Of a DNA stretch of 64,000 nt, positions 8,399 to 28,200 are shown in pieces; position 1 is the first letter of the stretch, and each line of letters opens with the position of its first letter. Made by a program: the position numbers and the translations under genes. The notes under the pieces were generated by a model. It did not search any database, was not told the DNA's origin, and saw only the letters and a program-made list of their open reading frames with translations. This DNA comes from Flavobacterium fluvii (lineage in GTDB: Bacteria; Bacteroidota; Bacteroidia; Flavobacteriales; Flavobacteriaceae). The stretch lies in assembly GCF_900129545.1 (NCBI RefSeq), contig NZ_FQWB01000004.1, forward strand, positions 186,001 to 250,000, given 5' to 3'.

Positions 8399-8755
8399 GA
8401 TATGGTATATGTATGTTGTTTATTAAATGGAGTAAAATGAGTTTTGGAAAAGAATTGTTATTCTTCTAATTTATTTCATTTTTCACGAGAGCATTTTGCA
8501 ATGACTTTTGCTAAATTACTAAAAAAACCAAGACAAATAGACCATAATGAAGACAAACACACCAATTTGTTTTTAGCCACAAATTACATTAATTCATTGT
8601 CTTTTTTTAACGGGACAACACGGGTTTTATCTATTAACTCAAATAGATTTATGGTAATTCACAACTTATTCTTACTCGGATTTACACCATAAAAAAATCC
8701 CGAATTGCTTCGGGATTCAATTTTACAAATTAGTGTAAAGGTATTTAGTTAAATT
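8399..8755. other. Gene-free stretch between cysK and the SusD gene
   Basis: 357 bases. Apart from the terminator at 8691-8717 I see no supported gene. An 82-codon plus-strand frame at 8444-8692 lacks a recognisable start context or domain and has a composition like non-coding DNA. A degenerate CCACAAATTACATTAATT word near 8578 belongs to the same repeat vocabulary as the palindrome at 7242. Confidence 0.7.
8691..8717 (-). terminator. Terminator of the FAS1/SusCD operon
   Basis: 9-bp stem AATCCCGAA / TTCGGGATT with a 4-base loop. On the minus strand it is followed by seven T. It lies 39 bases past the last SusD stop. Confidence 0.9.
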
Positions 8756-10513
8756 TTATTTCCAATCAAAAGGCAAATACCAATTGTTGACATTCAACAA
8801 CTTGGAACGTACTGCGCCAGCATTGGAATTTCCTTCTTTGCTCAATTTTTCATAAACCTTGTCTGCCAAAAATGAAGGGTCATTTCGGCGTAAAGCCACA
8901 CGAACCAAGTCTTCCCAACGACTACCTTCATAAGCTAAATCTAAAGCTGCTTCCCTGATAATATTATCTTCTGTAGTAATCACGTTATCTCCAATTGCTC
9001 CAGCAACGACTAAATTGCCACGCCCTCTAATTCCACCACCACGATACCAATTGTCTCTATATCTAGGGTAATCACCCGAACGAGCGTCAAAATCATAAGG
9101 AAAAGCTTCAAAAGTACGCATGGCATTTGTTACATCATCTTTACTACCATCGAGAGCAAGAGGGTTGTAAGCACTACCTATACCAAAATTTAATATTCCA
9201 AAGGCAATTTTTTGATGATTATCCCTGTTGGCCGCTTCTGCATATCTCAAATGCAATTTTTCAGCACGATATAAAAACCAATCCCCATCCTTTTTAAACG
9301 GATCTGCAGCAGATACAGCTTGATATTTGTATAGATACTTCATGATTACAGGGTCTCCTCCTACCATATTGTAAGTGAATTTTGTACCACGTGCATCATA
9401 AGGAATACCATTACGTTGCATTTGACTATTCCATAGATCGATAGAGCTTTGCGATGGTTTTGCCAAATATTTACCAGAATTTTTTGAAAACAAGTCAATA
9501 AAAGGATTTGCAGGAGCAAACTTACTGTCAAATGGCAATGACCAAATCCATTCCGTATTCCATACTACATCTCTACTTCTAGCAAAAATAGATCTCCATC
9601 CTTGAGTGTCAGTATTATACAAAGAACCAACATCGCTTCCAAGTGCATATCGAACAAGAAAATCGACATTACCGCTACCGGCAAAGAGACTTAAGCGGTA
9701 AGACTCGTATTTCTCCGTATCATTGGCACTAAGAGAAGCTGATTCCAGTACTTTTTTATAATGTGAAGCTGCCGCCAAATAATTCCCTTTCCAAAGTTGT
9801 AAATCACCTATCAAACATTCTTTATTGATAAATAATTTTTTTGTATAATAACCATCAACGGTGATCAACATACTACTTTGTGCATCATAGATCTCTTTAT
9901 AATTTAATCCTTCGGTAAAAGTCACCAATTTGTCTACAAGTTCGGTAAACGGAATTCTTGGATATTTGCTCATATTTTTAACATCCTCCAAAGTGGCAAT
10001 AGGCTCCGTGATATAAGGAACACTTCCAAAGTGTATTCCCAATTGCAAATAAACCCATGAACGAATACATCCCACATCGGCATAACGCTGATCGTATTGA
10101 GATTGTGTAAATTTCTTTTCAGCCAACATGATATCGAAATTTTTAAGGACATCATTACAGTTTTGAATCACCTCATAAAAAAGTTTTGGATTGGCATACG
10201 GATTGTCAACCGAAACATTATGTTGCGAAAGTTCTTTCAAATATGGGTTGGAATTGCGTGTTATCGTCATCAAGTCGGCACGCATTTCGTTAAGAATAAC
10301 ATGTTGTTCCGCAAGACCCATAAATTTGCCATATATGCCTATTACAGCGGCATCGGCATCATATACGTTACGATATACCTGATCCCCCGAAAGCCTGTCC
10401 TCAGGTTCCACATCCAGATAGTCCGAGCAAGAACCCAGGCTAAATAGCAGCACCATAACCGATACTATGGACAGGATGCGTTTTGTTGTTTTTGTATTAA
10501 TTGTTGTTATCAT
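8756..10513 (-). CDS. SusD/RagB-family surface lipoprotein (second pair)
   Basis: 585 residues. The lipoprotein signal ends LGSC at Cys29, followed by SDYLDVEPEDRL, the standard SusD N-terminus. The TPR-like helical part and the C-terminal SusD domain are present, with the usual ending NVNNWYLPFDWK. SusD proteins cap the SusC channel and capture ligand at the cell surface. This is the last gene of the seven-gene operon, 28 bases after its SusC partner, and is followed by a terminator. The ligand is unknown: no carbohydrate-active enzyme is nearby, so a non-glycan ligand should not be excluded. Confidence 0.93.
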   Translation of the reverse strand: MITTINTKTTKRILSIVSVMVLLFSLGSCSDYLDVEPEDRLSGDQVYRNVYDADAAVIGIYGKFMGLAEQHVILNEMRADLMTITRNSNPYLKELSQHNVSVDNPYANPKLFYEVIQNCNDVLKNFDIMLAEKKFTQSQYDQRYADVGCIRSWVYLQLGIHFGSVPYITEPIATLEDVKNMSKYPRIPFTELVDKLVTFTEGLNYKEIYDAQSSMLITVDGYYTKKLFINKECLIGDLQLWKGNYLAAASHYKKVLESASLSANDTEKYESYRLSLFAGSGNVDFLVRYALGSDVGSLYNTDTQGWRSIFARSRDVVWNTEWIWSLPFDSKFAPANPFIDLFSKNSGKYLAKPSQSSIDLWNSQMQRNGIPYDARGTKFTYNMVGGDPVIMKYLYKYQAVSAADPFKKDGDWFLYRAEKLHLRYAEAANRDNHQKIAFGILNFGIGSAYNPLALDGSKDDVTNAMRTFEAFPYDFDARSGDYPRYRDNWYRGGGIRGRGNLVVAGAIGDNVITTEDNIIREAALDLAYEGSRWEDLVRVALRRNDPSFLADKVYEKLSKEGNSNAGAVRSKLLNVNNWYLPFDWK

Positions 10514-10541
10514 CTGTATGTTATTTCTGTGGTGTAAATAA

Positions 10542-13500
10542 TTAAAGTCCTAAACGTAGTCCCAACTGGAATGTTCTGTACTGAGGAGCCAAACCAATAT
10601 CGGTTCCTTGACCAAATATAGAGGATGTAGCGCTAAATTCAGGGTCAAATCCAAGATAATCAGTTACCGTAAACAAGTTGTTGGCTGTGGCATAAATCTT
10701 GATGGCTTTGATATAATTCATTTTCTCGACATTAAAATCATATCCCAATACCAAACTTTTCAATCTTAAATAAGAACCGTCTTCAATCCATCTGTCTGAA
10801 AACTCGGCATTCCCCATTGGATCTCCCCAAGTTGCTTTCGGCATGTCGGTTACTTGACCTTCAGTTCTCCAACGATTTTGTACGGCAATGCTTTGGTTTT
10901 CATAACCACTCATTTTTTCAAGATTGTAACGTACTCCATTATAAATGTCGTTACCTACCGAGAAATTAAACAAACCTTGAAGACTGAAACGTTTATATGT
11001 GAAATTGGTAGAAATACTTCCGGTTACGTCCGGGTTTGGATTACCAATCACCACACGGTCTTTATCATCAACAACTTTGTCTCCATTAGTGTCTGTATAT
11101 CGCATATCTCCACCTTTAAATGGAACTAATTCACCATTAGGCATACGACGAGACAATCCAGCTGCTTGGGCATCTGTCGTTGTGGAATACACTCCATTCG
11201 TTTGCAACCCATAGAATAAATTAGCATCCTGTCCAACCGATGTAATATATGTGGCTCCTCCAAATTGAGTAAAAATATCTCCGCTAGGCAAGCTCTGTAC
11301 TCTATTGGTATAACTAGCCAATTTCACCCCTAAATCAAAAGTGAAATCAGGACTATTAACGATACGGGAGCTCACTGCCAATTCAGCTCCGAAAGTTCTC
11401 ATGGAACCACTATTCGAAACTACATAATCAAAACCACTTGCCGTATTGATTGATTCGTACACAATCATGTTATCCGTTCTATTGGAATAAAGATCCGAAG
11501 AAATATTTAGACGTTCATTCAACAAACCAAAGTCAAAACCCACGTTGAATTTTTTCACGGTTTCCCATTCCAAGTTTGGATTTCCAATGTTGCCACGTAC
11601 TAACCCCTGCATACCCAATAAATTTTGAGAAACATAATAAGTTTGTGCTGTATAATTTCCTACATCATCATTACCACTAGTACCATAACCAGCTCTAAGC
11701 TTTAAATAATCAATACCTTTCACGTTTTTCATAAAGCCTTCAGATGACACTAACCAAGCTCCAGTTATGGAAGTCATCAATGCAAATTTTTCTGATCCAT
11801 TTGATGCATCGTCACCAAATCTACTTGATCCGTCCACCGCATAACTTGTTGTAAAGAAATATTTGTCACGATAATTGTATTCCGCATTGGCATAAATATT
11901 CAACCACTTCCATTCTCCCAAAGAACCTCCTACATGACGTAGCAAGTTAGATCCTGCTCCTACGGTAGTAAAATCATCCGTAGAAGAATTGTAACCCAAC
12001 CCTAAATCACTTTCTGATTTACTACTTTGACTTCTAAGCCCAAAACGAACATTCAAACTATTGTCATCCTTGAATTTCTTGGCATAATCTGCATACGTAT
12101 CCGAAAAAATACTGTTATACGATTGAACTTCACTTCCTGAACGGTTACCAGCAATGGCAGTAGGAAGCACAATATCAGCTACTCCTAGATCTGGAATAAA
12201 GAAGCTTTCACGTTCTTTGTTGAAGGTTATACCAATAAGGGTGTTTAAATTCCAATCCTTGTTTAAAGCATAATTGAATTTAAAATTTCCGAAGAAACGG
12301 TAATTGTTGTTCGTTCCAAAACCTTTACTCAAAATCGCATTTGGGTTACTTACATTAAAATAATCCACGTCTGCCAAATTAGGAGATACTTCACCGGCAT
12401 CATCAACAACATGATGTGTCAAGAAAGGTGATTTAGTAAGTGCCAAATAGATAGGGCTCGTTTTATAAGCAAAACCTTGATCCCATTGATCCGAGATATT
12501 ATTGACAAAAGAGAGGTTGGCATCCATCGTCAGTCTTTGTGTCAACCTTAAAACTGCATTCAAACGGGTGCTATAACTTGTTGATTCGGTTTTATCCACG
12601 GTACCTTTACTATTTAGATAACCTACAGACAAACCAAACTTCGCAATCTCGTCACCTCCACGAATTTTAAGGAAGTAATTTTGGTTTACACTTGATTTAA
12701 AAACTTGGTCTTGCCAATTTGTATCATTGTGGTATTTATAATATCCCGCAGAACCCTCTGTATCATTCATGTATGGCAAGGCGCCAATCTGTTGTTGTGA
12801 CAGACCACGACTCGCTTCCAATTGGGAAAGGTGGGTACGATAAGCATCAGAACCCAACAATGGCAACTGATCTGGAGTCTGGTTTACTCCTCCGTACATG
12901 GTAAAGTCAATTTTGGTTGACAATTCGGTAGCACGAGTAGTCGTAATATTGATCACTCCATTACCTCCTTTTGTACCATAAAGCGAAGAACCATCTTTAA
13001 TAATAGTAACATCCTCAATATCTTTAACATCAATATTGGTCAAAGGTGATGACATATTGTTTTGAACGATTCCTGAGCCATAATCTTCATCATCGTAAAT
13101 CATTCCATCCACGACGATCAAAGGTTTGTTGGTGGCATACAATGAATTAAAACCACGTATTGTCATATAAGAACCAGTTCCTGGCGTTCCAGAACTTCTT
13201 ATAGCCGTCAATCCTGCCACTTTCCCTTGAAGAAAACCTCCAATAGATTCATTCACGGGACTTGACCACTGACCTTTCTCGAAATTCACTACACTGGTTG
13301 CATTGGTGTTATCATACTGCATTTTATCTCCAGAAGGTAAATTAGCCACTTCATATGAAGGAGCATAATTAGGCTCATAGAGGTAAATTTCAATTTCTGA
13401 TTTTTGCTGTTTCAAAGCATATACTTTAGTCTGATAATTTTCACCACTAATTTTAAGTTTCGCATCTAGATTTGGGACTTTAACTTCAAAGCTTCCGTCA

Positions 13501-13742
13501 TTATTCGTAATAGCGGCCGAAAAACCTTCAACAGCCACATTTATTCCTGATAGACCCACTTTGTTTTTTGCGCTTTTAACAACACCTTTAACCTTGATTC
13601 CTTTTGCGTTTTTGGAAGTGGAGGTTGGAATTGCTTTTACTGTCACAGTCGAATCCTGAACAGCCTGCGCGAACAACTGCATACTAAGACTTCCCGCAAA
13701 GAACAGGCTTACCACACAGCTTATTTTTAAATTGTTTAACAT
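10542..13742 (-). CDS. SusC/RagA-family TonB-dependent transporter (second pair)
   Basis: 1066 residues. Signal peptide ends near LFAQ (residue 26). A carboxypeptidase-D-like regulatory domain follows at about 47-125 (KGIKVKGVVKS... NNDGSFEVKVP). The plug is at about 150-290 and contains GFLQGKVAGL, MTIRGFNSL and PLIVVDGMIYDDED. The 22-strand barrel ends RTFQLGLRLGL. It imports a ligand across the outer membrane using TonB energy, with the adjacent SusD as lid. The regulatory domain is more diverged from the consensus than in the first SusC of this operon. Spacing is 21 bases after the upstream FAS1 gene and 28 before susD. Confidence 0.94.
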   Translation of the reverse strand: MLNNLKISCVVSLFFAGSLSMQLFAQAVQDSTVTVKAIPTSTSKNAKGIKVKGVVKSAKNKVGLSGINVAVEGFSAAITNNDGSFEVKVPNLDAKLKISGENYQTKVYALKQQKSEIEIYLYEPNYAPSYEVANLPSGDKMQYDNTNATSVVNFEKGQWSSPVNESIGGFLQGKVAGLTAIRSSGTPGTGSYMTIRGFNSLYATNKPLIVVDGMIYDDEDYGSGIVQNNMSSPLTNIDVKDIEDVTIIKDGSSLYGTKGGNGVINITTTRATELSTKIDFTMYGGVNQTPDQLPLLGSDAYRTHLSQLEASRGLSQQQIGALPYMNDTEGSAGYYKYHNDTNWQDQVFKSSVNQNYFLKIRGGDEIAKFGLSVGYLNSKGTVDKTESTSYSTRLNAVLRLTQRLTMDANLSFVNNISDQWDQGFAYKTSPIYLALTKSPFLTHHVVDDAGEVSPNLADVDYFNVSNPNAILSKGFGTNNNYRFFGNFKFNYALNKDWNLNTLIGITFNKERESFFIPDLGVADIVLPTAIAGNRSGSEVQSYNSIFSDTYADYAKKFKDDNSLNVRFGLRSQSSKSESDLGLGYNSSTDDFTTVGAGSNLLRHVGGSLGEWKWLNIYANAEYNYRDKYFFTTSYAVDGSSRFGDDASNGSEKFALMTSITGAWLVSSEGFMKNVKGIDYLKLRAGYGTSGNDDVGNYTAQTYYVSQNLLGMQGLVRGNIGNPNLEWETVKKFNVGFDFGLLNERLNISSDLYSNRTDNMIVYESINTASGFDYVVSNSGSMRTFGAELAVSSRIVNSPDFTFDLGVKLASYTNRVQSLPSGDIFTQFGGATYITSVGQDANLFYGLQTNGVYSTTTDAQAAGLSRRMPNGELVPFKGGDMRYTDTNGDKVVDDKDRVVIGNPNPDVTGSISTNFTYKRFSLQGLFNFSVGNDIYNGVRYNLEKMSGYENQSIAVQNRWRTEGQVTDMPKATWGDPMGNAEFSDRWIEDGSYLRLKSLVLGYDFNVEKMNYIKAIKIYATANNLFTVTDYLGFDPEFSATSSIFGQGTDIGLAPQYRTFQLGLRLGL

Positions 13743-13763
13743 ATCTATTTTTATAAAATATTA

Positions 13764-15239
13764 TTATTTAACTTGAGGAACAAATTTCAAATAGTCAAGG
13801 CTAAGAGAGTTATTCCCGGCAACACCGGTATTGACAGCAGTTAGTGAAATCAAATTGAGATCACCTGCTTGTGTCAATGTAATTTCTCCTAAATAAACTT
13901 CATTATAATTAAGAAGCTCTACATTTGTGTAAGGAAAAGTTGCCCAAGCACCAACCACATCATACTTTGTACCCGTTAGCACCAGTTTTCCACCTATGCG
14001 GAGCGACTGCTGGAAAACGTTGGTTTGAGTATTTATGGCTCTCCAATACACTTTGTAGGTAGTGGTAAAAAAATCTTTATCTCCATAGAACAGCATAAAC
14101 GATGACACATCTTTTGGTGGTGCGACATAGACATCATTGAAACGTGTTATCCCATCTGGTTCTATTCTATCGCGTTTAGAAATATAAGTACTTGATCCAT
14201 TGAGATATCCCGTACTTTTTTCTCCTTCTATTTTTTTGGTCAATAAACGTTTTGCAACAGGAACATCCACTTTTTTCATTATATAAACTATACCATTGCT
14301 CAAGCGTATTGGCTGTCCAACAATTTGCGTTTTGTCTATGGGAACTTCAACCCCGAATCTTGAAGTCAAAGTGGCCGGCAATTTATCCAGTTCATACTTT
14401 TTACCAAAAGCCAAATCTCTCAATGTGAAATATTTTGAATAAATGGCTGTAGAATCTATAGCTGGATTATTGGTTTTCTTGATCAAATAAGGTTTCATCT
14501 TGTCCACTTCGGTATTGTACCCAGCATCCTCCATTAAAAATAATGTATAGGAGTTTTTCTCGTTGTTCAGGTTGTACACATTTCTTAAATAAGAATTGGT
14601 CAAGGAATCGGAATAAACTCCAGGGACTGCATTTTTTTTGGCATCAATATCAGAAGTATAGATACTAAATTCTTTTAAACTCAATAAATAATCACTCATT
14701 GCAGAAGCTCCCGCTTTTGAATTGACATATTGCCAAATGTTCATTTTAGGAGTAAGTACTTTATCAATAACGTGAAACACTCCATTGGCCGCATAATGGT
14801 CTGCAGAGATAATCGTCGCATCATCAATCATGGTACTTCCCTTGAATACCAAGTATTTGGAGCCGGACATTTTTATTTGCGTTTCCTGCGTACCTCTCAC
14901 AGAAGAAAAAGCAGTCAAGGCAATATGATTGCCAACAAATTCCTTTAGTGCATCAGGATTATTCAAGATGGCACTATCCACCAAGGCCATGGCCTCATTG
15001 GTAGGAACAAAAACGGTGTATGTTTTTGAAGCTGCCAAAATCTTGTCGTATCCCGTTTCGACCAATAATTTTGTAAACTGTGATGTTCCAGCCGTATTAG
15101 TTATGGCCACGTCCAGGGTAACTTTTAGGTTGGCATCGTCAATATCCTGACGCTCATCCCAAGGACTGGAACATGAGATCAAGGCTATGGTCAGTACACC
15201 AACCAACAGCCTTTTATAATTTAATTTTAATAAACTCAT
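13764..15239 (-). CDS. FAS1 (fasciclin) domain lipoprotein, 491 residues
   Basis: The start is taken at ATG 15239, giving MSLLKLNYKRLLVGVL and a lipobox ending LISC (Cys23). A longer frame to 15290 would overlap the preceding gene and displace the signal. A first FAS1 domain shows the H1 motif YTVFVPTNEAM and the H2 motif NGVFHVIDKVL. A second, degenerate FAS1-like domain has YTLFLMEDAGY and NGIVYIMKKV. The C-terminal 150 residues look like a beta-sandwich (alternating hydrophobics, no catalytic motif), similar in placement to the C-terminal part of the 595-residue neighbour. Likely a surface adhesin or ligand-binding accessory of the SusCD pair that follows. Function not established. Confidence 0.85.
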   Translation of the reverse strand: MSLLKLNYKRLLVGVLTIALISCSSPWDERQDIDDANLKVTLDVAITNTAGTSQFTKLLVETGYDKILAASKTYTVFVPTNEAMALVDSAILNNPDALKEFVGNHIALTAFSSVRGTQETQIKMSGSKYLVFKGSTMIDDATIISADHYAANGVFHVIDKVLTPKMNIWQYVNSKAGASAMSDYLLSLKEFSIYTSDIDAKKNAVPGVYSDSLTNSYLRNVYNLNNEKNSYTLFLMEDAGYNTEVDKMKPYLIKKTNNPAIDSTAIYSKYFTLRDLAFGKKYELDKLPATLTSRFGVEVPIDKTQIVGQPIRLSNGIVYIMKKVDVPVAKRLLTKKIEGEKSTGYLNGSSTYISKRDRIEPDGITRFNDVYVAPPKDVSSFMLFYGDKDFFTTTYKVYWRAINTQTNVFQQSLRIGGKLVLTGTKYDVVGAWATFPYTNVELLNYNEVYLGEITLTQAGDLNLISLTAVNTGVAGNNSLSLDYLKFVPQVK

Positions 15240-15279
15240 TTTTTCTTGATTAAGTTTGTACATGTACACTTTTATAATT

Positions 15280-17067
15280 TTAATAACCACTATTACTGTT
15301 ATCGCCTTTTGTGGCCTCTTCTCTTTGAATTAAACCATCTCCATTAGCATCTCCATTAGGATCTTTAATACCCGTTTTAATACCTTTTTTAAATTTCGGC
15401 CATATTTGATCAATGTCAACAGGACGGAATTCGATCAAGTCAATCCTGTCTGCGTCAGCACTACCACTACTTGTACCAGCATCAGTATTAAATTTAATTA
15501 AATGTCTTCCAGTTGTCGTTACTTCAACAATACCTACCAGTCTAGAAACCATCGCGTCACCCTTAACAAATGGAAATATATGACGTTTGTAGCCTTGCGA
15601 CTCATACACCCTGTCCACAATACCCGTTGCAACAACAGAAGGATCATTTGGGAATTCTTTCATATTGAGAATCCTGGAGGTTTGCTCTCCATTAAAAAAC
15701 ACCTTAGTATTTGAAGATCCACTTGCGTGTGCACGATAGGACACCCATATTTTATAACGTCCCTTAATAATTACCGGAGTTTTATATTCTATATCATTCA
15801 GACCTCCCGAACCAGTACGAAAACGGGTAGCTCTTATTAAATCCCCATTAACCGCTCCACCATAATTATTCCAATCCAGGGTATATGTTTTACTTCCTGT
15901 CCAGGTAATATCAGCAAATCCTCCTGGTGGAATACCAAAAGATGCTCCCGTGGATTTTCTATAATTAGCCACATTTGCCGCAAATTCTGGTTGATCGCAT
16001 ACATCAAAATAAACCGGCGAAGGAAGACGTTTTTTAATAGTGAAGTGTCCATCCACATAATGCAATACTCCATTGGAAGTAGTAACATCACTAGGTGCCC
16101 TCAATATGGGAACACCTTCTTCAAGTATTCCATTGAAAACATCACGATTCAAATAGATGACGTCTTTTATTAATTTGGAACTAATCACCTCAAGAGGCGC
16201 TTTGGTTACAAAAACCGGTGTAGTTGCCAAATCGGCCAAGTAATTTAATTGAGGCACTACATGATATTGCACAAACAAGTTCAAACTATCTGCTGGATTC
16301 ATAGGATCTGTTGATTTGCTGTATCTTGCTTTCAAATCAGCCAAACTATTAAAACCTGCTTTAGTGAACACATCGTTGGTTTGCGCCAATACGGTCAAAT
16401 GACTGCCTATTTTACTGGCATCATAAGTAAGTGGTTGATTTAATTTGTCATACCATCCAGTGGCTTTTAAAACTTCGGTAAACAAAGAAAGATTTACATC
16501 AGCTTCAATGGTTTGCGCCAAGGTCTTGTCGGCCACACGCAACACTTTGTCAATAACATGAACAACACCATTCCCCAACTCTAGGTTAGAAGCTACGATA
16601 TTCGCTGTTTTATTGATTGTTATACTGGAAACCCCATTGATGTTGGCTGCTCCAGTTATTAGATACTGGCCATACATAGTTGGTGTTGCTATCTTACCAT
16701 CGGTAAAAAGGGTTGTATTGATTCTCGCATCCAAAATATGCAGTTTGGCTATATTTTGCAAGTCCGCCAATGGCACATCTTTCAATGAATTGGCACCTAC
16801 ATCCTTCAAATATTGTTTCACTGCTTCATTGGTTGGAAGAAACATGGTATAGGTACCATAAGTATTCATGAATGAAGCATAGTTGGTAATATCCAAAATT
16901 TCCAAGAACATGGAATAATCCTGATTGGCTCTTAAATATTCGGTAATATTAAGAGTTTCGTCGGTAGTCTGTTTGATCTCTACTTGAGTACAGTTCTGAA
17001 AAACTAAAGCGGTCAAAAACACTAAAGCAAGTTTCAGGAGGCTAGGCAATCTTAATAATTTTTTCAT
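15280..17067 (-). CDS. FAS1 domain lipoprotein with EF-hand-like tail, 595 residues
   Basis: Lipoprotein signal ends FQNC (Cys26). Two FAS1 domains: the first with YTMFLPTNEAV and NGVVHVIDKVL, the second with LTVLAQTNDVF and NGVLHYVDGHF. A beta-rich region of about 180 residues follows, then a charged Ca-loop-like tail (DPNGDANGDGLIQREE), which has the D-x-N-x-D-G-x-I spacing of an EF-hand or dockerin half-site. Only one such loop is present, so a full dockerin is not supported. It sits 14 bases after SusD and 40 before the next FAS1 gene. Probably a surface-exposed binding protein; the ligand is unknown. Confidence 0.87.
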   Translation of the reverse strand: MKKLLRLPSLLKLALVFLTALVFQNCTQVEIKQTTDETLNITEYLRANQDYSMFLEILDITNYASFMNTYGTYTMFLPTNEAVKQYLKDVGANSLKDVPLADLQNIAKLHILDARINTTLFTDGKIATPTMYGQYLITGAANINGVSSITINKTANIVASNLELGNGVVHVIDKVLRVADKTLAQTIEADVNLSLFTEVLKATGWYDKLNQPLTYDASKIGSHLTVLAQTNDVFTKAGFNSLADLKARYSKSTDPMNPADSLNLFVQYHVVPQLNYLADLATTPVFVTKAPLEVISSKLIKDVIYLNRDVFNGILEEGVPILRAPSDVTTSNGVLHYVDGHFTIKKRLPSPVYFDVCDQPEFAANVANYRKSTGASFGIPPGGFADITWTGSKTYTLDWNNYGGAVNGDLIRATRFRTGSGGLNDIEYKTPVIIKGRYKIWVSYRAHASGSSNTKVFFNGEQTSRILNMKEFPNDPSVVATGIVDRVYESQGYKRHIFPFVKGDAMVSRLVGIVEVTTTGRHLIKFNTDAGTSSGSADADRIDLIEFRPVDIDQIWPKFKKGIKTGIKDPNGDANGDGLIQREEATKGDNSNSGY

Positions 17068-17081
17068 GTCTTAGTTTTTAA

Positions 17082-18587
17082 TTATTTATAAAATGGATTT
17101 TGTACTAATGCTTTATTGGTAAAAAGTTCATTCGTGTTAATAGGCAAATAATGACTATTTGGATCTTTCAATTTTGCAATAATCGACTGTTGTTTGTCTA
17201 CCGGGGCTGTAGCTATGGCCAAATCAATCAACAATTGTTTACGTTCGTAATTATTGGCACGGGCAATACGCAATACATCATACCAACGTTTTCCTTCAAA
17301 AGCAAATTCTCGAGCACGTTCTGCCAAGATAAAATCGATGATACCATTTGTGTCTCCTTCACCAGGACTCATATCCGTTTCATCAAGAGCCCAACGTTTT
17401 AATCGAAGATCCGTAATAATGGTAATTGCATCTTTACCTTGTCCCAATCTTGCCAATGCTTCGGCTTGCATCAACAATACATCCGAATAACGATAAACAA
17501 ACCAGTGTGTATTTGAATCCTGCAACTGTTTTAATTCACCACCATCAAAGCGTGTAAACTTGATAATTTCACCCGTTGCCCCGAATAATGATGCATAATT
17601 TCCACGAACATCTCTTCTACCGATAGGATCGTTGACATCATATCCATAAACCTCATCCATCATTAGTGAATAAGCTTTAAATTGCGGTCTTTGAAAAAAG
17701 ATGCTATAAAATGGTCCTGTATTGGCTGAGGTATATTGAAATTCAAAGATGCCTTCAGACGAATTTCCATTGGAATAAATTGTATTAAACCAAGTAGCCG
17801 AATTATTGGATTCCACCAACTTGTATTTACCGGAATTAATCACCTTTTTTGTTGCATCAAGTGCTTCTTGATAACTTTCTGTCCACAAATACACATCTGC
17901 CTGCATTGTATTTATCGTATATTTCGTAATACGCCCTTTGTTCGAAGCATTGTTTCCATAATCTTCCACGGCATATTCTTCAGCCAATTTCAAATCTTTG
18001 ATGACCTGTGCAAAAACATCTGCTTGCTTTGAGACAGGTATTTGAAAATTATCCTTATCAGAAAGTGTGGCTGTCAATTTCAATGGCACATCTTTAAAGG
18101 TACGCGCCAAAGTAAAGTACATATATGCCCTGATGGCCAATGCCTCTGAAACAAAATGATTTAATTGGTCTTGAGTCAAGGTTGGGTCCTCATTTTTAAC
18201 CGCTGGTGCCAAATCAATTACCGTATTGCAATAATTGATGGTTCTATAAAAGATGGACCAGTCCGTCAAAGCATTGGATGGAAGAACATTGGTTTCTAGA
18301 ATATCTCTTTCATCTTCGGTGGCAAAAACCCCCTCGACAACCATGCCTCCCCTTAATTCACCATGCATGAACAAGTATTGGGTCATCGAGAAATCGTCCA
18401 CGCCAGGAGGCGAGTTCAACAATGAGGAATAAATCCCAATTACTGCTGCCTGAATATCCTCCTTGGTTTTCCAGAATTCATCACGCACAATCCCGTCTTG
18501 AGGACGTAAATCTAAATAATCGTCGCACGAACTTGCCGAAACGAAAAGTACAAAGATTGCTAATATTGTTTTTATTTTAGTTTGCAT
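17082..18587 (-). CDS. SusD/RagB-family surface lipoprotein (first pair)
   Basis: 501 residues. Lipobox ASSC with Cys21, then DDYLDLRPQDGI. The SusD-like N-terminal domain (DEFWKTKEDIQAAVIGIY) and the C-terminal RagB/SusD domain with RAREFAFEGKRWYDVLR are clear, and the ending NTNELFTNKALVQNPFYK is typical. This second signature is better conserved than in the other SusD of the operon, so the two pairs are not a recent duplication. It follows its SusC partner by 17 bases and precedes a FAS1 gene by 14. Confidence 0.94.
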   Translation of the reverse strand: MQTKIKTILAIFVLFVSASSCDDYLDLRPQDGIVRDEFWKTKEDIQAAVIGIYSSLLNSPPGVDDFSMTQYLFMHGELRGGMVVEGVFATEDERDILETNVLPSNALTDWSIFYRTINYCNTVIDLAPAVKNEDPTLTQDQLNHFVSEALAIRAYMYFTLARTFKDVPLKLTATLSDKDNFQIPVSKQADVFAQVIKDLKLAEEYAVEDYGNNASNKGRITKYTINTMQADVYLWTESYQEALDATKKVINSGKYKLVESNNSATWFNTIYSNGNSSEGIFEFQYTSANTGPFYSIFFQRPQFKAYSLMMDEVYGYDVNDPIGRRDVRGNYASLFGATGEIIKFTRFDGGELKQLQDSNTHWFVYRYSDVLLMQAEALARLGQGKDAITIITDLRLKRWALDETDMSPGEGDTNGIIDFILAERAREFAFEGKRWYDVLRIARANNYERKQLLIDLAIATAPVDKQQSIIAKLKDPNSHYLPINTNELFTNKALVQNPFYK

Positions 18588-18604
18588 AATCTAATATTTT
18601 ATTT

Positions 18605-21600
18605 TTAAAAACGAGTTGAAACACCAAATGTAAAACGTTGTGTAGGTGGCGTGGAAGCATTGTCGATAGCCATACCGAATGGTCCTGACCCCATACCCAC
18701 CTCAGGATCTTGTCCACGATAATTTGTCCAAGTGTACAAGTTGTCACCCGTTACATAAAAACCTAAATCATCCACATTCAATTTCTTCAACATATTCTTT
18801 CCTACATTATAACGAAAGGTAACCGAACGAAGACGCAAGAAAGAAGCATCCTCCACATAACGGTCAGAACCCAACCAGTTATATCCTGCACCAAAAACCG
18901 CTCTAGGCATATCAGTAACATCACCCGGATTACGCCATCTAGACAAAACCGCCGTACTTTGATTGCTGTATCCACTCATATTGGTCGTTTTCATGTCTGT
19001 TCCGTTAACAATGTCATAATTCATGCGGTAGTTAAAGAAAAGCAATAATCTAAACTGATTGTTAAAGGTTATGTTCGGACCAAATCCCCCGGTAATTTTA
19101 GGGTTACTGTTTCCTAAATACACCACGTCACGGCTGTCTATATTACCATCTTTATTGATGTCCTCATAAATGGCATCTCCAGGTTGGAATACATAATCCG
19201 TATTAGGATAATTAAAACGCATCAAGACTTCTTGACCATTAGGTCCCAGAATGACATTTCCGTTGGCATCTTTGGCCTTTGTTGCTTCAAGATCTGTATA
19301 AACCCCCTTGAATTTATAACCATAAAATGAACCAAAAGGATTATCCACTTGAAGGAAACGTTTGAATTCTCCGTTTTTATCGGTGTTCCCACTTTCAGAT
19401 GGGTAAAATTCCGATATTTCCGTAATCATGTTCTCATTGCTGGCAATGTTGAAATTGAAATCCACTTTCCATTTACCCGATTTGTAAGGGGTGGTATTAA
19501 GACCAATCTCCCATCCTTGGTTTTTCATGGTTCCCGCATTTTGATCGGAAATAGTATTGTACCCTGAAAGTGAACTTACCTCAATATTTGGGTAAAGCAG
19601 ATCTTCGGTAATATTTTGATATAAATCGACATCCAAGGACACGCGTTTTTTAAACAATTGCAAGTTAAACCCAATGTTTTTACCCGTTAATGTCTCCCAA
19701 CGCAAATTGGTCAACTCCATATTTACAGGAATAACTCCATTCATGTCCAAGTACGAAGTTTCATAATTATCATACACGTTAAAATAACGATAATCATAAC
19801 GAGGCGCTCTACCTGATTTACCATAACTAATTCTAAAACTCAAATCATCCACATAATCCAAGTTCTTCATGAATGACTCCCCTGAAACTCTCCAACGGGC
19901 AGACACGGAAGGAAATAAACCATATCTGTTTTCAGGACCAAATTTTGAATTACCATCTGCACGCAAACCAACATTCACGATATAACGATCCAACAAACCG
20001 TATTGGGCACTCAATAACGAACCTACACTTCTGGACTGACTGCTATTGGTATACAATTGCAATTCCGAGTTTTGTGTTCTCGATGGATTCGATGGATCCG
20101 TTAATATGGATGAAGCCGTATTTGATGTTAATGCCCTGTGCGAGGCATAACGGGAGTCATTTGTTTGCAACGACAAGATAGTCATTAAGCTATGTTTTTC
20201 ACCTAACTGCGGCGTATAAACAATATTTGTCTTTGTAATGATACTGGAAGAATCACCATCAGAATCAGAAGCCCTGTTCACCACTGTTTCCGTAAAAGGA
20301 CGTCCGGTGGCATTTTGTGGCAAGAAGTCTTTCGTCTTGGTACTGTTGTAATCAAATTGCAAATCAAAGGTAGACATTAATGTCCTTGGAATGATATCCA
20401 CATTCACGTTAAAGTGTGGAACAATACGTTGCGTTATTTGATCATTAATTGCATACTCCGCCAAGGCAACCGGATTATACGTGCCTGGATAAGTACCCTG
20501 AACGTTTGATGGTGGAGAGAAATAATTTGGAGTAAGTTCTCCCATTTCATTATACTCATAAATGCTCATGTTCGGCATTTTCACATAAGCAACACCTCTT
20601 AATTTGTCTTGGTTATCTTTAGTATTCACATAATTACGTTTGGTGTAGGAGTGTGAGTAGGACAAATCCGTTTTAAATTTAATACGACTGGAAACCCTGT
20701 AATCCAAGTTCAATCTGGTACTGATCCTTTCCAACCCAGTCCCAATTGTTACCCCTCTGGAATTAAAATAGCTCACGGAAGTATAGTAACTTGCTTTTTC
20801 CCCTCCTCCTGACAGAGCAAGGTTGTGTTCATTCGTCAAACCGGTTTGACTGATGGCATCAATCCAATCGGTGTTTTGACTATAGTTTTTATAAAAATAA
20901 ACATCTTGAGGATCGTACTGAAATTCTTTTACATTCAAAGTATTCAAAGGCACCCCATTTCTGTTCATGAATTCTTCAGGAATCAATTGTGAATATTGAT
21001 CTCCATTCAACATTGGAATAGTAGGAGGCAACTTGGCATAACTCCCTTTATAAGTATAGGTGATTTTTGGAGCACTTACTCCTCCACGTTTAGTGGTAAT
21101 CAATATAACCCCACTGGCCGCTTTAGATCCCCATACCGCTGTTGCGGCTGCATCTTTCAAAATAGTAATCGTTTCAATGTCGGTAGGTGCAATATTCAAT
21201 AATGCGGCATACCCTTGATCATCAGCACTACCAAAGTTGAAATCTTCCGGAATTGTGGTTTCGTATGGCATACCATCTACCACTACCAAGGGTTCAGAAG
21301 AACCAGAAATGGAAGAAGTACCACGAATACGGATTTGCATTCCAGCACCTGGATCTCCACTTGTGGCCGTAATGTCAACCCCTGCCATACGTCCTTGCAA
21401 AGCCTCATCAATAGATGCCGCTTGGGTATAGGCCAAATCTGCAGCATTAATGGTAACCGAACTGGTCGTTCTATCACGATCGGCAATATTCATCAAACCT
21501 GAATTGCCCTTTTTTTCAGACGTAATAACAATCTCCTTCAATGACTCCGTACTGGAAACCAATTTTATTTTAATAGTCTCACGACCATTGATCGGCACCG

Positions 21601-21880
21601 TTTGGGATTTATATCCAATGGTTGAAATAAACAACTTGTTGTTGGGATTTTTAACACGTATCGCAAAATTCCCGTCGATATCCGTAATCACCCCTGTTAC
21701 GGTACGACCCTCCACGTCTTGTTCTACAACAGTAGCACCTGGTATAGATAAATTATCGCCTGAATCGACTATCTGGCCGCGTACCAATAACGCTTTGCTT
21801 TGAGCCAAAGCAGGTAACGTTGCCAATAAAACAAAGGCAATTGTAAAACTGTAAAATATATTTTTAATTAGTTGTCTCAT
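18605..21880 (-). CDS. SusC/RagA-family TonB-dependent transporter (first pair)
   Basis: 1091 residues. The signal peptide ends ALAQ (residue 27). A canonical carboxypeptidase-D-like domain (VRGQIVDSGDNLSIPGATV, TDIDGNFAI) precedes the plug, which holds LQGRMAGVDI, IRIRGTSS, PLVVVDGMPYE and TITILKDAAATAVWGSKAASG. The barrel ends TFGVSTRF with the final aromatic expected for BAM-dependent insertion. Transports an unknown ligand together with the SusD encoded 17 bases downstream. It starts 14 bases after the large FAS1 lipoprotein gene, which heads the operon. Confidence 0.95.
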   Translation of the reverse strand: MRQLIKNIFYSFTIAFVLLATLPALAQSKALLVRGQIVDSGDNLSIPGATVVEQDVEGRTVTGVITDIDGNFAIRVKNPNNKLFISTIGYKSQTVPINGRETIKIKLVSSTESLKEIVITSEKKGNSGLMNIADRDRTTSSVTINAADLAYTQAASIDEALQGRMAGVDITATSGDPGAGMQIRIRGTSSISGSSEPLVVVDGMPYETTIPEDFNFGSADDQGYAALLNIAPTDIETITILKDAAATAVWGSKAASGVILITTKRGGVSAPKITYTYKGSYAKLPPTIPMLNGDQYSQLIPEEFMNRNGVPLNTLNVKEFQYDPQDVYFYKNYSQNTDWIDAISQTGLTNEHNLALSGGGEKASYYTSVSYFNSRGVTIGTGLERISTRLNLDYRVSSRIKFKTDLSYSHSYTKRNYVNTKDNQDKLRGVAYVKMPNMSIYEYNEMGELTPNYFSPPSNVQGTYPGTYNPVALAEYAINDQITQRIVPHFNVNVDIIPRTLMSTFDLQFDYNSTKTKDFLPQNATGRPFTETVVNRASDSDGDSSSIITKTNIVYTPQLGEKHSLMTILSLQTNDSRYASHRALTSNTASSILTDPSNPSRTQNSELQLYTNSSQSRSVGSLLSAQYGLLDRYIVNVGLRADGNSKFGPENRYGLFPSVSARWRVSGESFMKNLDYVDDLSFRISYGKSGRAPRYDYRYFNVYDNYETSYLDMNGVIPVNMELTNLRWETLTGKNIGFNLQLFKKRVSLDVDLYQNITEDLLYPNIEVSSLSGYNTISDQNAGTMKNQGWEIGLNTTPYKSGKWKVDFNFNIASNENMITEISEFYPSESGNTDKNGEFKRFLQVDNPFGSFYGYKFKGVYTDLEATKAKDANGNVILGPNGQEVLMRFNYPNTDYVFQPGDAIYEDINKDGNIDSRDVVYLGNSNPKITGGFGPNITFNNQFRLLLFFNYRMNYDIVNGTDMKTTNMSGYSNQSTAVLSRWRNPGDVTDMPRAVFGAGYNWLGSDRYVEDASFLRLRSVTFRYNVGKNMLKKLNVDDLGFYVTGDNLYTWTNYRGQDPEVGMGSGPFGMAIDNASTPPTQRFTFGVSTRF

Positions 21881-21894
21881 TTTATTCGGTAAAT

Positions 21895-24117
21895 TTAAGG
21901 TAATAGGTAATTGTCCACTAAATGAATTAAGGACCTGTCTGCCAAATTGTTGCTACTAGCCAGAATAAACTTGGCAGCTGCATTGTTTCCTGAATTGTCT
22001 TTAAATGACAAGGTTCCAGCAGCACTTGTTACTTCAACATAGGTTTTGTCTCCTTTTGTATCCTTTCTCAAAGTTTCTTGTTGCCCTGTTATAAACCCAT
22101 CATTTGAAACCGTTTTATTATTTATGATATGATAGCGAATAAAATCGGCAACTAAATCTTTTTCTCCTTGCGTCTGACTTGCTGCAAGAGGTGATGCCGG
22201 AAGTACTTTAGCCGCAACCGCTCTTGCAATTGCCGCTTTATTAGGCACTATGAAAGTATAAGAGCTTCCCAAAGCCACACCTTCAATTTTTCCCGTGCTT
22301 GCGGTGTAAATAGTGGAGTTTTTCAAATATTGAAAAAAAGCATCAAACTCCGTATTAGTTGCCGCTAAACGCTCAATTGCCTTTCCTTGTAATTCAAGAG
22401 AAAATTCCGGGAACCTGTCAACATAATACGCTATCCCGTTTTGTTGCACTTCTTTACCTATCACGTTAACAGCAGGTGCACCACCCGATGCAATAGGCAC
22501 AAAATTTCCTGCTGCATAAATCTTGTTGTTGCTCCATTTTATGTATTCCCCAGGAAGTTCTTCATCCCCGGTACGAATAATTCCAGAAGTAGTTGCAATA
22601 TTATCCAACTCCCCTTTTGGAGTTTGCACAATGCAATTGTAAAAAAGTCTCAACAATTGATTTTTTACTCCTGTACCTTGTGTGGCAGTTCCATTTGCAG
22701 GATTAACCCATCTCCATTCTCCCCTTATACTGTCAAAACTATAACCAAGACTTCTCAATATATCATCAGACGGCAAAAAGATGGTGTACTTTTTATTGAT
22801 GTTACTAATCATTTCTTTGTAACCAGAACCTTCATTAAATATCTTGGTTGCATAAGTATATTTAGGATCCAAATAAGCCGAAGTGTACACACTGTAAAAT
22901 AAATTTGATTTTTGAACTTTGTTGGCGCCATAAAAGAATCCGTTGCTCAAAACTTTTTTATCCGTAATGTCAGTGTTAAAATCAAATTTCAACTCCTCTC
23001 CCAAAGCATTAACATAATCATCTTTCAAGGTTGGCCAAACTGCAGATTGTACCATATGGGCATTAACCAAATCTTGAAAAACATATATAGGCAGTTTTTC
23101 AACAGCAGAGTAGTTCTTAAGCAACACTGTATTTACAAAAGTCTGAAATGCCGCATTTTCAGGAACAATCATGGTATAGGCATCCGCTTGACCATCATTA
23201 TCCTCCGCTTTCATGTAATTTTCATTATTAGGCGCAAATTTCAAAGTAGGATCATACATTTTAACAAAAACATCATCCGTTTTCTTGGTATAATTACGAT
23301 AAGCCGTGGTAGCCTGCTGATTAAAATCATAACGAACCAAATTCTTTTCAATAACATCACGAAAGAGACTGTAATTAGGGTTTTGTTCTAGATACTGGTC
23401 TATATTCAAAGGAGGAAGATTTACTTTATCCAACTCATGAATTACCCCATTTTCAGCAATGATATCCGCCTCGGTTACTTTTGAATCCAAAACATTGAAT
23501 CCTGTATATTCTGCAGTAGGATAGAAATAGTTGAAATCACCAGCACTTAAGCGTTTTGACGCAAAATATTCATTCGTGAAATAAGTGACATACTTATTAT
23601 TGTTGTCTCCAGCAACATATAGGGCAGAGCCATTGCGGTTCGTACCTACAATTACTTTCGGCTGGCCATTTACAATTTTAGATTGAAACCCGTCATAAAA
23701 TGCAGTTCTTCTTCTATAAGCATTATCTACTACCCATCCTTTACTGGATTGATAATCCGATAACTTCTCTTCTCTAAAAGCATTATATATAAGAGCGAAT
23801 TTCACAATTTTGGCAGCAGTGATTGAATCAACTTTACTCACGTCCGAGAAACCTTTTTCTTGAAAAAACTTTGTGAAGGCTTCATCATTGGGAGCCATCA
23901 TGGTCCAATATCCTGCTTTACTCAAGATATCTTTGTAACCTGCTTTTTGTATTAAAGCCGTCAGGCTTTTGAAATTACCGCGCGCCTCCAACTGTTGGTA
24001 AATTGGATCTTCAAGACCTGCAGGACGTTCATAGTACGGATCCAGCTCTTGACTACAACTGGCAAAGAGAGCCAGTAGTGGAAGGACAAACAAATAATAG
24101 TGAATTTTTTTCTTCAT
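21895..24117 (-). CDS. Multi-FAS1 lipoprotein, 740 residues, first gene of the operon
   Basis: Lipoprotein signal ends FASC (Cys21). Four FAS1-like units can be recognised by their H1-type motifs: WTMMAPNDEAF, YTMIVPENAAF, YTIFLPSDDIL and YTFIVPNKAAI, with H2-type NGVIHELDKV after the first and LIHLVDNYLLP at the very C-terminus. FAS1 domains are extracellular adhesion/binding modules. Being first in a SusCD operon and lipidated suggests a surface-exposed partner of the transporter. It is larger than typical bacterial FAS1 proteins. No enzymatic motif seen. Confidence 0.85.
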   Translation of the reverse strand: MKKKIHYYLFVLPLLALFASCSQELDPYYERPAGLEDPIYQQLEARGNFKSLTALIQKAGYKDILSKAGYWTMMAPNDEAFTKFFQEKGFSDVSKVDSITAAKIVKFALIYNAFREEKLSDYQSSKGWVVDNAYRRRTAFYDGFQSKIVNGQPKVIVGTNRNGSALYVAGDNNNKYVTYFTNEYFASKRLSAGDFNYFYPTAEYTGFNVLDSKVTEADIIAENGVIHELDKVNLPPLNIDQYLEQNPNYSLFRDVIEKNLVRYDFNQQATTAYRNYTKKTDDVFVKMYDPTLKFAPNNENYMKAEDNDGQADAYTMIVPENAAFQTFVNTVLLKNYSAVEKLPIYVFQDLVNAHMVQSAVWPTLKDDYVNALGEELKFDFNTDITDKKVLSNGFFYGANKVQKSNLFYSVYTSAYLDPKYTYATKIFNEGSGYKEMISNINKKYTIFLPSDDILRSLGYSFDSIRGEWRWVNPANGTATQGTGVKNQLLRLFYNCIVQTPKGELDNIATTSGIIRTGDEELPGEYIKWSNNKIYAAGNFVPIASGGAPAVNVIGKEVQQNGIAYYVDRFPEFSLELQGKAIERLAATNTEFDAFFQYLKNSTIYTASTGKIEGVALGSSYTFIVPNKAAIARAVAAKVLPASPLAASQTQGEKDLVADFIRYHIINNKTVSNDGFITGQQETLRKDTKGDKTYVEVTSAAGTLSFKDNSGNNAAAKFILASSNNLADRSLIHLVDNYLLP

Positions 24118-25087: not shown

Positions 25088-25213
25088 AAGTCTAAATAAG
25101 TTTTTTAAACCAAAATTCAGATTTAGCATAAATACAAGATATTGAATCACTTAAAAAGTTGGGCATTACTTTACGACAAAGAAATATTCATCGATTTTTT
25201 ATCCGAAAAACCT

Positions 25214-28200
25214 ATGAGGAAAACTACTTTTTTAAAAAAAATATTTATACTAATCCCCTTCTTGCTTTGCAGCTTTTTGGGGGTGGCTCAAACACAAGCC
25301 CCTACTTCTCCACAAGTTAACTTTTTGCAAAGAACTGCCTCTGCCACGCCTACCCAAAAAGTATATAACGTCAAGGGTGATTTTACTATGTTGGGCAACA
25401 CAAACTTGACTCTTGTTACCCCATCTAACACCAACAATAACGAAGGAAATGCGATGAAATACGTCGATATTGATGGCGATCCCACTACTTTGAATTCTTC
25501 CATGGCTACTCTTGAACTTTCCAATGGAGGCGAAAATAGCGCCAACCCAAATTGCTCTACCGTTCTTTTTGCAGGTTTATATTGGACCGGAAAATCAGAC
25601 GATAACAATGAAACATTTTCCTTTGGCACAAATATTTCAAATAATTCCACGGTTGCTAACACAAACTACACAATGACCGTATCAAGAGGAGGAACTGGTG
25701 GTCCACCCAGTAATTATTATCCGATTTACACTTTCACTGGTAATAGTCATACTTACGCTTTTAGTTTTACCAATAATAATTCAGGTTCTTCAATTGTTAC
25801 ACTTAGCATTGATAATGGCGCATCATCCAACATTCCCGTTACATACAATTCCGGAATAGCAACATTTACTACGCCTTATACATCAAATGTTACTTACGGT
25901 GCACAATTTACCATTAATAGTTTGACAAGGGACACCCAAAAAAACAAAACTGAACCTGAATATCAATCTAGTAGTTCTGCGAACGTTTCTAACCCTCTTA
26001 CAAAAAACTACAACAAAAAAGTAGTCTCTTTAAAAGGTCCCGGTGATTCAAATTATACCACCATAACAGGAAATTCACAAATTCGTTTCCCAGGAGCTTC
26101 CGACAGTGGGATTTTCATTGGTTACCAAGAAATAACCAATTATGTGAAAGCACACGGACCAGGAGCTTATACCGTTGCCGACATCGCCCTGAAAGAAGGA
26201 ACAAATTCTAGTCCCGGTTTTTCGGGAGGTTGGTCAATGGTCGTTATATATGAAAACCCTATAATGAAAAGTCGAGCCGTAACCCTTTTTGACGGCTATG
26301 CTTATGTAAACGGACAGCTTGCCGCAGCCGCTCCTTATACTGCTCAGGGAGAATATGGAACAATTCCCATTTCAGGATTCACGACAGTTGGTTCAGGACC
26401 AGTAAACATGAAACTGGGTGTCATGGCAGCCGAAGGTGATGTTGCCACCAACTCGGGAAGTGATTATCTGGCAGTACAAAAATTAAATGCAGATCCAGCA
26501 GTCTACAACACCACCAACTATTTAACATTAAACCATGCGGGCAATACAACCACAAACTTTTTTAATTCCTCCATATACCCAATTCCGACAGGCGGCACTA
26601 CAAATAGTAATCCCAATTTAGTAAATAATACGGGAGTTGACTTTAGCATGTTTACCATTCCGAATGTTGGAAATGCAGTCATAGGCAACAACCAGACCTC
26701 TACTACTTTCAGGTTTGGATCCACATACGAAGTATATACTATTTTCGGATTTGCAATGTCCGTAGATGCTTATATTCCGGAACCCAAGGGATTAACCAGC
26801 GTAACATCCATCAATAACGTTCCAAACCCTCCAGTTTTAAGTGCATTGCCGGGGCAATCCATTAATTATTCTCTCAGCATTACCAATGAAGGTACTGAAG
26901 CCACGAATAATACAATAGTTGCAATTCCAATTCCCACAACCGCAATTTTTAATACCGGAGCAACAATTACTTACCATACCTACAACGGTTTTACCACGTC
27001 TAATGTTCCCTATTTTGATTCAGCAACAAATAAAATCATCTGGAATTTAGGTACATTACCCATAACCGCTAACCATCCTGAATATATCTATGCCGATTTA
27101 AGTTTTACCCTCAATGTCACAACAGATTGCGCCATTATATTAAGTGCCGGTTGCAGCCCCGAGGTTTCTCTGGAAACAGGCACCATAACAGGTACGGGAG
27201 CCACCTCAGGATCTTCATTTACGAAATATTTTTTTCAAGGCTATGACACGAGTACTTGTCATTTGCCCATAAGTGGCTCGATAAAAGTAGCCATAGACGC
27301 AAGCTCTTGCTTGTCCAGTATGGCTGGTCCTGATCAATTGGCTTCTTGTGGCGGGGAATATGCTACATTAGGAGCATCAACAGCAAAAGCAGGATCATGG
27401 TCTATTGTTAGCAGTCCTGCTGGTGGTGGAGAAATTTTTTCTGACATCACAAGTCCAACCTCATCATTTTACAGCCCTAATCTTGGAGCATACACTTTAA
27501 GATGGACTACAACTTGCAACACCACAGATGATGTCGTGGTTACTTTTTTGCTTTGCAATGTCGTCAATTTTGACGGAGTCGATGACAACATCAATTTTAA
27601 AAACAACCATAATTTAAACAGCGGTAATTTTAGTTTGGAAATATGGGTAAAATCAAATGCAACCAACGCCAACACTCAAACCATAATTTCAAAACACCTT
27701 AGTCCAACTGCAATTGACGGCTATGATTTAAGATTGGTAAACAACCTCATCTCATTCAATTGGAATAATAATTCCATTATCGCCACACATGCAATTGACA
27801 CAAACCGATGGTATCATGTTGCGGTCACTTTCGACGGAACCAACTATAAATTGTACATTGACGGAATATTGGAAAAAACTGCTGCAGGCGTAAATCCCAC
27901 ATTGAACAGTGTTGATTCTATTTTGGGTGCGATGAGTCAAAACACCAACACACCCTACAATTATTACTATGGTTATGCAGATGAATTCCGTGTGTGGAAT
28001 GTTTCGTTGACAGTTGATCAAATTCGTCAAATGATGAATCAGGAAATCATAAATGATGGCAGTAACAATGTAAAAGGCGCAATAATACCTAAAAACATCA
28101 GCGGATTAAGTTGGACTAATTTGACTGGTTATTATCAAATGAATCGAGCAAGCGATATCAGCAATGGTTATTTAGTGGATAAATCCGGTAACACCATAAA

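Follow-up and report, generated by a model that had tools for sequence, protein, structure and literature searches.

A conserved fasciclin and SusC/SusD gene set of Flavobacterium fluvii as a probable uptake core for rhamnogalacturonan-I

The 64,000-nucleotide stretch of Flavobacterium fluvii DNA analysed here (positions 186,001 to 250,000 of contig NZ_FQWB01000004.1, assembly GCF_900129545.1; hereafter the window) carries seven minus-strand genes, which run from 24117 to 8756 in the order FAS_A, SusC1, SusD1, FAS_B, FAS_C, SusC2 and SusD2 in the open reading frame (ORF) list. They encode three fasciclin (FAS1) proteins and two SusC/SusD pairs. We consider it probable that they form the outer-membrane capture-and-uptake core of a utilisation system for rhamnogalacturonan-I (RG-I), the pectin backbone, detached from its enzymes. 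RG-I is proposed as the ligand because RG-I genes adjoin the module in relatives, the lyase family PL11 tracks the module across Flavobacterium genomes, and a FAS_B paralogue in the same genome sits with PL11. A preliminary description, made from the sequence alone, had portrayed the set as a surface capture-and-uptake machine, a reading that our analysis supports; this is an already known kind of machine, in which the fasciclin parts are unusual.

Conservation and distribution of the module

Since the 50 complete loci compared were chosen for a match to FAS_A, FAS_B or FAS_C, the count of gene order tells how often the remaining genes follow. In 49 of them all seven genes are present in the same order and on the same strand, and in the exception (G1433) FAS_B precedes FAS_A; the surmise that similar gene sets exist in other Bacteroidota is thus borne out. 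The starting set comprised 54 loci, from which L053 had been excluded as too short. L044 (F. cellulosilyticum), which lies on the same contig as G640 and has an identical SusC1, was dropped from the order count and is still included among the 22 Flavobacterium loci of the neighbour survey described below. Also outside the 50 are OWN2 and L042, which hold FAS_B without the other six genes, and G1269, with four genes at a contig end. The FAS_C threshold in this count was 40 bits, which admits G874 (43 bits), and the near-identical L047 and L048 are both among the loci compared. The lowest pairwise identities are 15–33%, depending on which of the seven proteins is considered, and correlations between their distance matrices are 0.93–0.97. 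Twelve named loci with the identical seven-gene order span four NCBI orders of Bacteroidota, namely Flavobacteriales (Flavobacterium and Galbibacter), Sphingobacteriales (Pedobacter and Pararcticibacter), Bacteroidales (one metagenome-assembled genome, MAG) and Marinilabiliales (Plebeiobacterium and a Marinilabiliaceae strain). The nearest of them, L041, belongs to a Flavobacterium MAG and has a FAS_B that is 88% identical.

The distribution of the module is patchy. With the F. fluvii genome itself counted, full-length FAS_C is found in 17 of 299 Flavobacterium genomes and FAS_A, at class level, in eight of 395, one of which (G874) matches partially; 14 of 248 genomes of the order of G309 have FAS_A. 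A separate FAS_C search gave 144 matching genomes, eight of which, again including our own, have the full-length protein; the other rows listed match the N-terminal FAS1 part only. Neighbourhoods were taken from 16 of the 17 Flavobacterium FAS_C genomes (the window's included, G031 left out), from all eight class-level FAS_A genomes, from 12 of the 14 in the order of G309 and from eight of the 23 genomes of a further search, many of which match FAS_A partly and 15 of which were left out; G259 and G399 were added from the FAS_C search with 144 matches. An rpoB tree was built for 40 Flavobacterium genomes with one outgroup, and the module label requires 10 changes on it. G309, of family f18, carries two complete seven-gene modules (L144–L147). 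In a quick four-protein tree the module of G1094 (L207–L208), a genome in the order of G918, groups with the family f18 loci, a placement that hints at transfer or at a mixed assembly. At five loci (L051, L052, L054 and L203–L206) the module is followed by a protein of about 920–990 amino acids, and a Por secretion tail is present in the single one scanned.

RG-I genes beside the module and in module genomes

Neighbouring genes were surveyed by phmmer (E<=1e-15) with 15 reference genes for RG-I, and a locus was scored if at least one of these lay near the module. This was the case at all four named Pedobacter and Pararcticibacter loci and at 11 of 13 family f18 loci, together 15 of 17, and at seven of 12 further loci, comprising all three named Bacteroidales and Marinilabiliales loci, four of eight in the order of G918 and not G874 (0/1). 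Within Flavobacterium six of 22 loci scored, including G005, where the single match could be a general dehydrogenase; the one Galbibacter locus did not. Representative neighbours have Pfam matches to PL11 and PL4 rhamnogalacturonan lyases, to GH106 rhamnosidase, GH88, GH28, GH2 and GH43 enzymes, and to GDSL and SASA esterases, and on the rhamnose side to a RhaT symporter, an aldolase/dehydrogenase fusion, a sugar isomerase and an FGGY kinase. Some of these neighbour genes we take to be GH105, CE12, RhaD, RhaI and RhaK.

At the level of whole Flavobacterium genomes, PL11 is present in 19 of 19 module genomes, compared with three of 21 without the module (Fisher p 1.2e-8), and GH106 in 19 of 19 compared with 10 of 21 (p 1.9e-4). 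The module was seen complete in 18 of the 19 and is represented in G031 by FAS_B and FAS_C alone; the 21 module-free genomes were hand-picked for size and completeness, with absence judged by protein searches. General richness in carbohydrate-active enzymes (CAZymes) was set aside as the cause of the PL11 link by the GH92 control, which occurs in 16 of 19 module genomes and 19 of 21 others (p 0.65). Shared descent is weakened as a cause by seven independent pairs on the rpoB tree, in which PL11 tracks the module 5.3 times on average and runs opposite 0 times (median p 0.06); for GH92 the corresponding values are 1.0 and 0.7.

The F. fluvii genome itself encodes RG-I lyases and rhamnosidases away from the window set. 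On contig C26 a FAS_B paralogue, 72% identical (L009 8117–9829; L156), stands without the other six genes next to a PL11 lyase, GH2 enzymes, a SASA esterase, a hybrid two-component regulator and another SusCD pair. At L042, FAS_B likewise occurs without the other six genes and among RG-I genes. In Flavobacterium the enzymes are mostly separated from the core yet kept in the genome, and the absence of enzymes beside the core is a feature of this lineage, not of the system as such.

The gene set in the window

FAS_A (21895..24117, minus strand as are all the following; 740 amino acids) is the first gene and encodes a lipoprotein with four FAS1 units, which Pfam Fasciclin matches in four stretches (E 3.8e-27). 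It is followed by SusC1 (18605..21880; 1091 amino acids), a SusC/RagA TonB-dependent transporter by NCBIfam TIGR04056 (733 bits, cut-off 368), and SusD1 (17082..18587; 501 amino acids), a SusD/RagB lipoprotein (Pfam SusD_RagB, E 3.1e-29). Next are two further fasciclin lipoproteins, FAS_B (15280..17067; 595 amino acids; two Fasciclin stretches, E 1e-25), the C-terminal domain of which is related to DUF5108, and FAS_C (13764..15290; 508 amino acids from a GTG; one Fasciclin stretch, E 1.4e-21), for which the in-frame ATG at 15239 is the likelier start. SusC2 (10542..13742; 1066 amino acids; TIGR04056 613 bits, cut-off 368) is a second SusC/RagA transporter, and SusD2 (8756..10513; 585 amino acids) a divergent SusD lipoprotein (SusD-like_3, E 6.6e-8; SusD_RagB, E 6.4e-6). 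Fasciclin (PF02469) lies above the Pfam cut-off of 22 bits in all three FAS proteins (95.4, 90.8 and 77.4 bits), a TonB plug is found by Pfam in both SusC proteins, and both SusD proteins match SusD families.

With FAS_C taken from its ATG, the gaps between the seven genes are 14, 17, 14, 40, 21 and 28 bases. Directly 3' of SusD2 lies a terminator-like hairpin with a T tail (8695..8718, minus strand), whose 10 pairs are the most among the sites listed; across the whole region 11 terminator-like sites were found, compared with a mean of 12.0 in shuffles, which is no excess. A -7-like box, TAAATTTG, lies about 80 bases 5' of FAS_A, with no -33 box at the usual spacing, and the Bacteroidota promoter pattern, which occurs 13 times in the window (6.7 expected), has no match directly upstream of FAS_A. 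An RNA family scan of the window returned tRNA-Thr only. A lipobox-like cysteine is present in all five non-SusC proteins, in a non-canonical version (FQNC) in FAS_B. By a simple pattern devised for this analysis, it recurs in the compared loci in 46 of 51 FAS_A, 52 of 53 FAS_B, 50 of 50 FAS_C, 51 of 51 SusD1 and 50 of 50 SusD2 proteins, and in one of 51 SusC1 and six of 50 SusC2 proteins. Judged by their sequences, SusC1/SusD1 and SusC2/SusD2 are two distinct pairs; a PDB search gave 31 sequence relatives for SusD1 at E<=0.001 and none for SusD2 at E<=0.01. A recent tandem duplication of a SusCD pair was set aside, each SusC having a much better score against its own family than against that of its counterpart. 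The gene order, spacing (with the ATG start), terminal hairpin, five lipoproteins and unlike SusCD pairs given in the preliminary description therefore all stand.

So does its statement that no CAZyme or regulator adjoins the set. No glycan-degrading enzyme or regulator is present among the 27 window proteins scanned, some smaller or farther ORFs being outside the scan, and 21 reference proteins (RG-I and sugar genes) gave no match in the window flanks. The set is classed as an uptake core and not as a complete polysaccharide utilisation locus (PUL) because the latter has linked CAZymes and a regulator, neither of which was found beside the window set. The other 20 scanned proteins are mostly housekeeping, and include a phosphomannose isomerase (5543–6505) and two large secreted repeat proteins. 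The latter lie divergent from the seven-gene set, each with a Por secretion tail: a 1651-amino-acid laminin-G protein (25142–30097) and a 3316-amino-acid protein with 14 HYR stretches (30616–40566).

Domains and predicted folds of the fasciclin proteins

A PDB sequence search with FAS_A, FAS_B and FAS_C returned general FAS1 relatives only. The model of FAS_C (mean predicted local distance difference test score, pLDDT, 81.4) predicts two FAS1 domains and a C-terminal domain resembling carbohydrate-binding modules (CBMs) of families 6, 35 and 36. The first FAS1 unit matches FAS1-4 of TGFBIp (Z 18.8, root-mean-square deviation, rmsd, 1.4 over 124 residues), and residues 5–306 align with the tandem FAS1 units in periostin and TGFBIp, at a large rmsd of 10–11; the second unit is visible in the model only. 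A CBM6 can be superposed on residues ~310–467 of the predicted model with Z 13.2 and an rmsd of 2.5 over 124 residues, and CBM36 and CBM35 match there at Z 11–12. Foldseek matches include a CBM35 complexed with delta-4,5-anhydrogalacturonic acid, the sugar left by pectin lyases, the likeness being at the level of the fold only. A D-Y-(L/I/F)-(K/R) motif at the end of FAS_C is found in 45 of 50 loci; an E-G/A-E motif was discarded, being present in just 33 of 50.

For FAS_B, DUF5108 scores below its cut-off in the window protein (E 1.9e-4), and the G874 relative has FAS1 at E 1.5e-20 as well as DUF5108 at 63.7 bits (cut-off 27.4); it is because of this relative that FAS_B can be tied to the DUF5108 protein of Bacteroides thetaiotaomicron discussed below. 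At the end of FAS_B (15283–15363) a DxNxDG-type, dockerin- or EF-hand-like tail is present in the window and in L041 and missing from the other alignment rows. From these predicted domains, FAS_C and FAS_B are most likely surface glycan-binding proteins, and FAS_A would be a further surface partner.

Comparison with known systems

The set shares with Sus-type systems in general the SusC barrel, the SusD lid and accessory surface lipoproteins, and differs from them in its three fixed FAS1 lipoproteins and in having no linked enzyme or regulator that we could find. With periostin, TGFBIp and fasciclin I it shares the FAS1 fold; in contrast to these, the window proteins are bacterial lipoproteins in a SusCD gene set, and the FAS_C model ends in a CBM-like domain.

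The closest counterpart is the RG-I PUL of B. thetaiotaomicron, BT4145–BT4183, of which published sources give the following account. BT4145–83 is tabled for RG-I (PMC3243724), and two hybrid two-component system (HTCS) regulators are placed in it (PMC3878776). In a review, BT4164/65 and BT4168/69 are described as RG-I importers and BT4167 as an RG-I surface glycan-binding protein (PMC8002723), while another source lists BT4164–69 as SusC, a DUF5108 protein, hypothetical proteins and a TonB receptor, the exact DUF5108 gene not being named (PMC10434189). A vesicle cargo table gives the substrate of BT4163–BT4165 as 'Unknown' (PMC13088901). By these published locus tags and roles, the window order fits that of BT4164–BT4169 (SusC, SusD, protein, surface glycan-binding protein, SusC, SusD): two SusCD pairs flank BT4166 and BT4167, with a DUF5108 protein in the run. 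By position, BT4163 could at a guess match FAS_A. As described there, the B. thetaiotaomicron core is set among lyases, hydrolases and HTCS regulators, whereas the window core stands alone. In the literature searched, outside of which most subscription papers lie, no account linking fasciclin with SusC/SusD or with the BT4145–83 locus was found, nor any that describes the accessory proteins of this core as FAS1 proteins; in PMC10199937, the one paper in which fasciclin, SusC and SusD all occur, fasciclin appears once, in the reference list.

The preliminary description had left the ligand unnamed, and had held that a characterised locus of the same order and ligand would tell against it. The genomic context and this locus, described for RG-I and of matching order, now point to a ligand, which is still an inferred one, and as far as the sources describe it the B. 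thetaiotaomicron locus is in part such a counterpart. Two further suggestions are not supported. Fasciclins were thought to act in place of surface glycan-binding proteins, whereas the CBM6/35-like domain of the FAS_C model and DUF5108 in the FAS_B family suggest that FAS_C and FAS_B most likely are such proteins themselves; nor is a replacement of enzymes supported, as genes for RG-I lyases and rhamnosidases lie at other places in the genome and adjoin the module in many relatives.

Alternative explanations

Several observations weigh against an RG-I uptake core. Sixteen of the 22 Flavobacterium loci, the window's included, have no RG-I reference gene nearby (three have flanks of just 3–4 kb), and none is found at G309b, G1424, G874, G1249, G1140, G1238, the Galbibacter locus or G1269, the last with hardly any flank. 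Genes that we take to be xylulokinase-like stand beside six of the 22 (G464 at L157–L158, G005 at L138–L139, G550 at L163–L164, G561 at L165–L166, L043 and L045), and in the four of these with long flanks there is also a gene that is presumably xylose isomerase-like; G464 additionally bears a sulfatase. RG-I alone does not call for such genes. Such a pattern would suit the same machine serving a different ligand in Flavobacterium, an acidic rhamnose- or xylose-bearing glycan such as xylogalacturonan or an ulvan-like sulfated algal polymer, with the RG-I enzymes as fellow travellers. The independent-pairs test, which has low power, also misses 0.05. However, the presence of PL11 in every module genome and in few others, the FAS_B paralogue beside PL11 in the same genome, the RG-I genes at 15 of the 17 family f18, Pedobacter and Pararcticibacter loci, and the assignment of the matching B. 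thetaiotaomicron locus to RG-I in the review (PMC8002723) all argue for RG-I, and we regard another ligand as unlikely.

A different role for the fasciclins would leave all recognition to the SusCD pairs, the FAS1 proteins being adhesins or structural spacers that bind no imported glycan. Adhesion proteins are the best-known setting of FAS1 domains, and the solved structures closest in sequence are those of periostin and TGFBIp. The fold of the FAS_C end domain is in itself no proof of sugar binding, because the sandwich domain of Cry toxins matches it too (Z 11), and the FAS_B model, in which FAS1 and CBM35-like folds are matched, is of low confidence (mean pLDDT 65) and not a basis for domain claims on its own. 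Against the RG-I reading itself, the likeness to BT4163–BT4169 comes from published descriptions and not from sequences: it is drawn from the arrangement of the locus tags, from the DUF5108 family name and from the locus of G874, which is divergent and in which FAS_C reaches just 43 bits. Nevertheless, the CBM6/35-like end domain in the FAS_C model, the occurrence of FAS_B alone among RG-I genes on contig C26 and at L042, and the naming of BT4167, at the matching position, as an RG-I surface glycan-binding protein in the review (PMC8002723) make a purely adhesive or structural role very improbable. That the seven form a chance run of separately acting genes has nothing in its favour but the missing adjacent enzyme or regulator, is refuted by the order kept in 49 of 50 complete loci, and can be given practically no credence.

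Proposed function and implications

For the RG-I uptake core we hypothesize the following mechanism. FAS_A, FAS_B and FAS_C would be exposed on the cell surface as lipoproteins, where FAS_C and probably FAS_B may hold RG-I by means of a CBM-like domain at the C-terminus, the FAS1 units serving as a scaffold or a second binding surface. Lyases encoded elsewhere, PL11 among others, would cleave the RG-I chain, and the two SusD lids and two SusC barrels would import the oligosaccharides with TonB energy, presumably dividing the labour between the two pairs in one assembly. Periplasmic GH106, GH88/105 and GH28 enzymes and rhamnose catabolism would then complete the breakdown. More tentatively, and in our view rather doubtfully, the FAS1 domains themselves, beyond the CBM-like end domains, could recognise RG-I, and the three FAS1 lipoproteins could link both of the dissimilar SusCD pairs in a single surface complex. 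If this were true, an adhesion fold would be used by bacteria as a pectin receptor, in a fixed seven-gene cassette across Bacteroidota.

What is new here is the FAS1 nature of the accessory proteins, the phylum-wide fixed cassette and its enzyme-free form. A likely ligand and mechanism are thereby put forward for a conserved set of seven genes, three of which encode fasciclin proteins, and FAS1 together with a CBM-like domain is suggested as the make-up of the reported RG-I surface glycan-binding protein. Pectin uptake in the gut and in the environment would be tied to one cassette, and whether bacterial FAS1 domains bind pectin can be tested on individual purified proteins.

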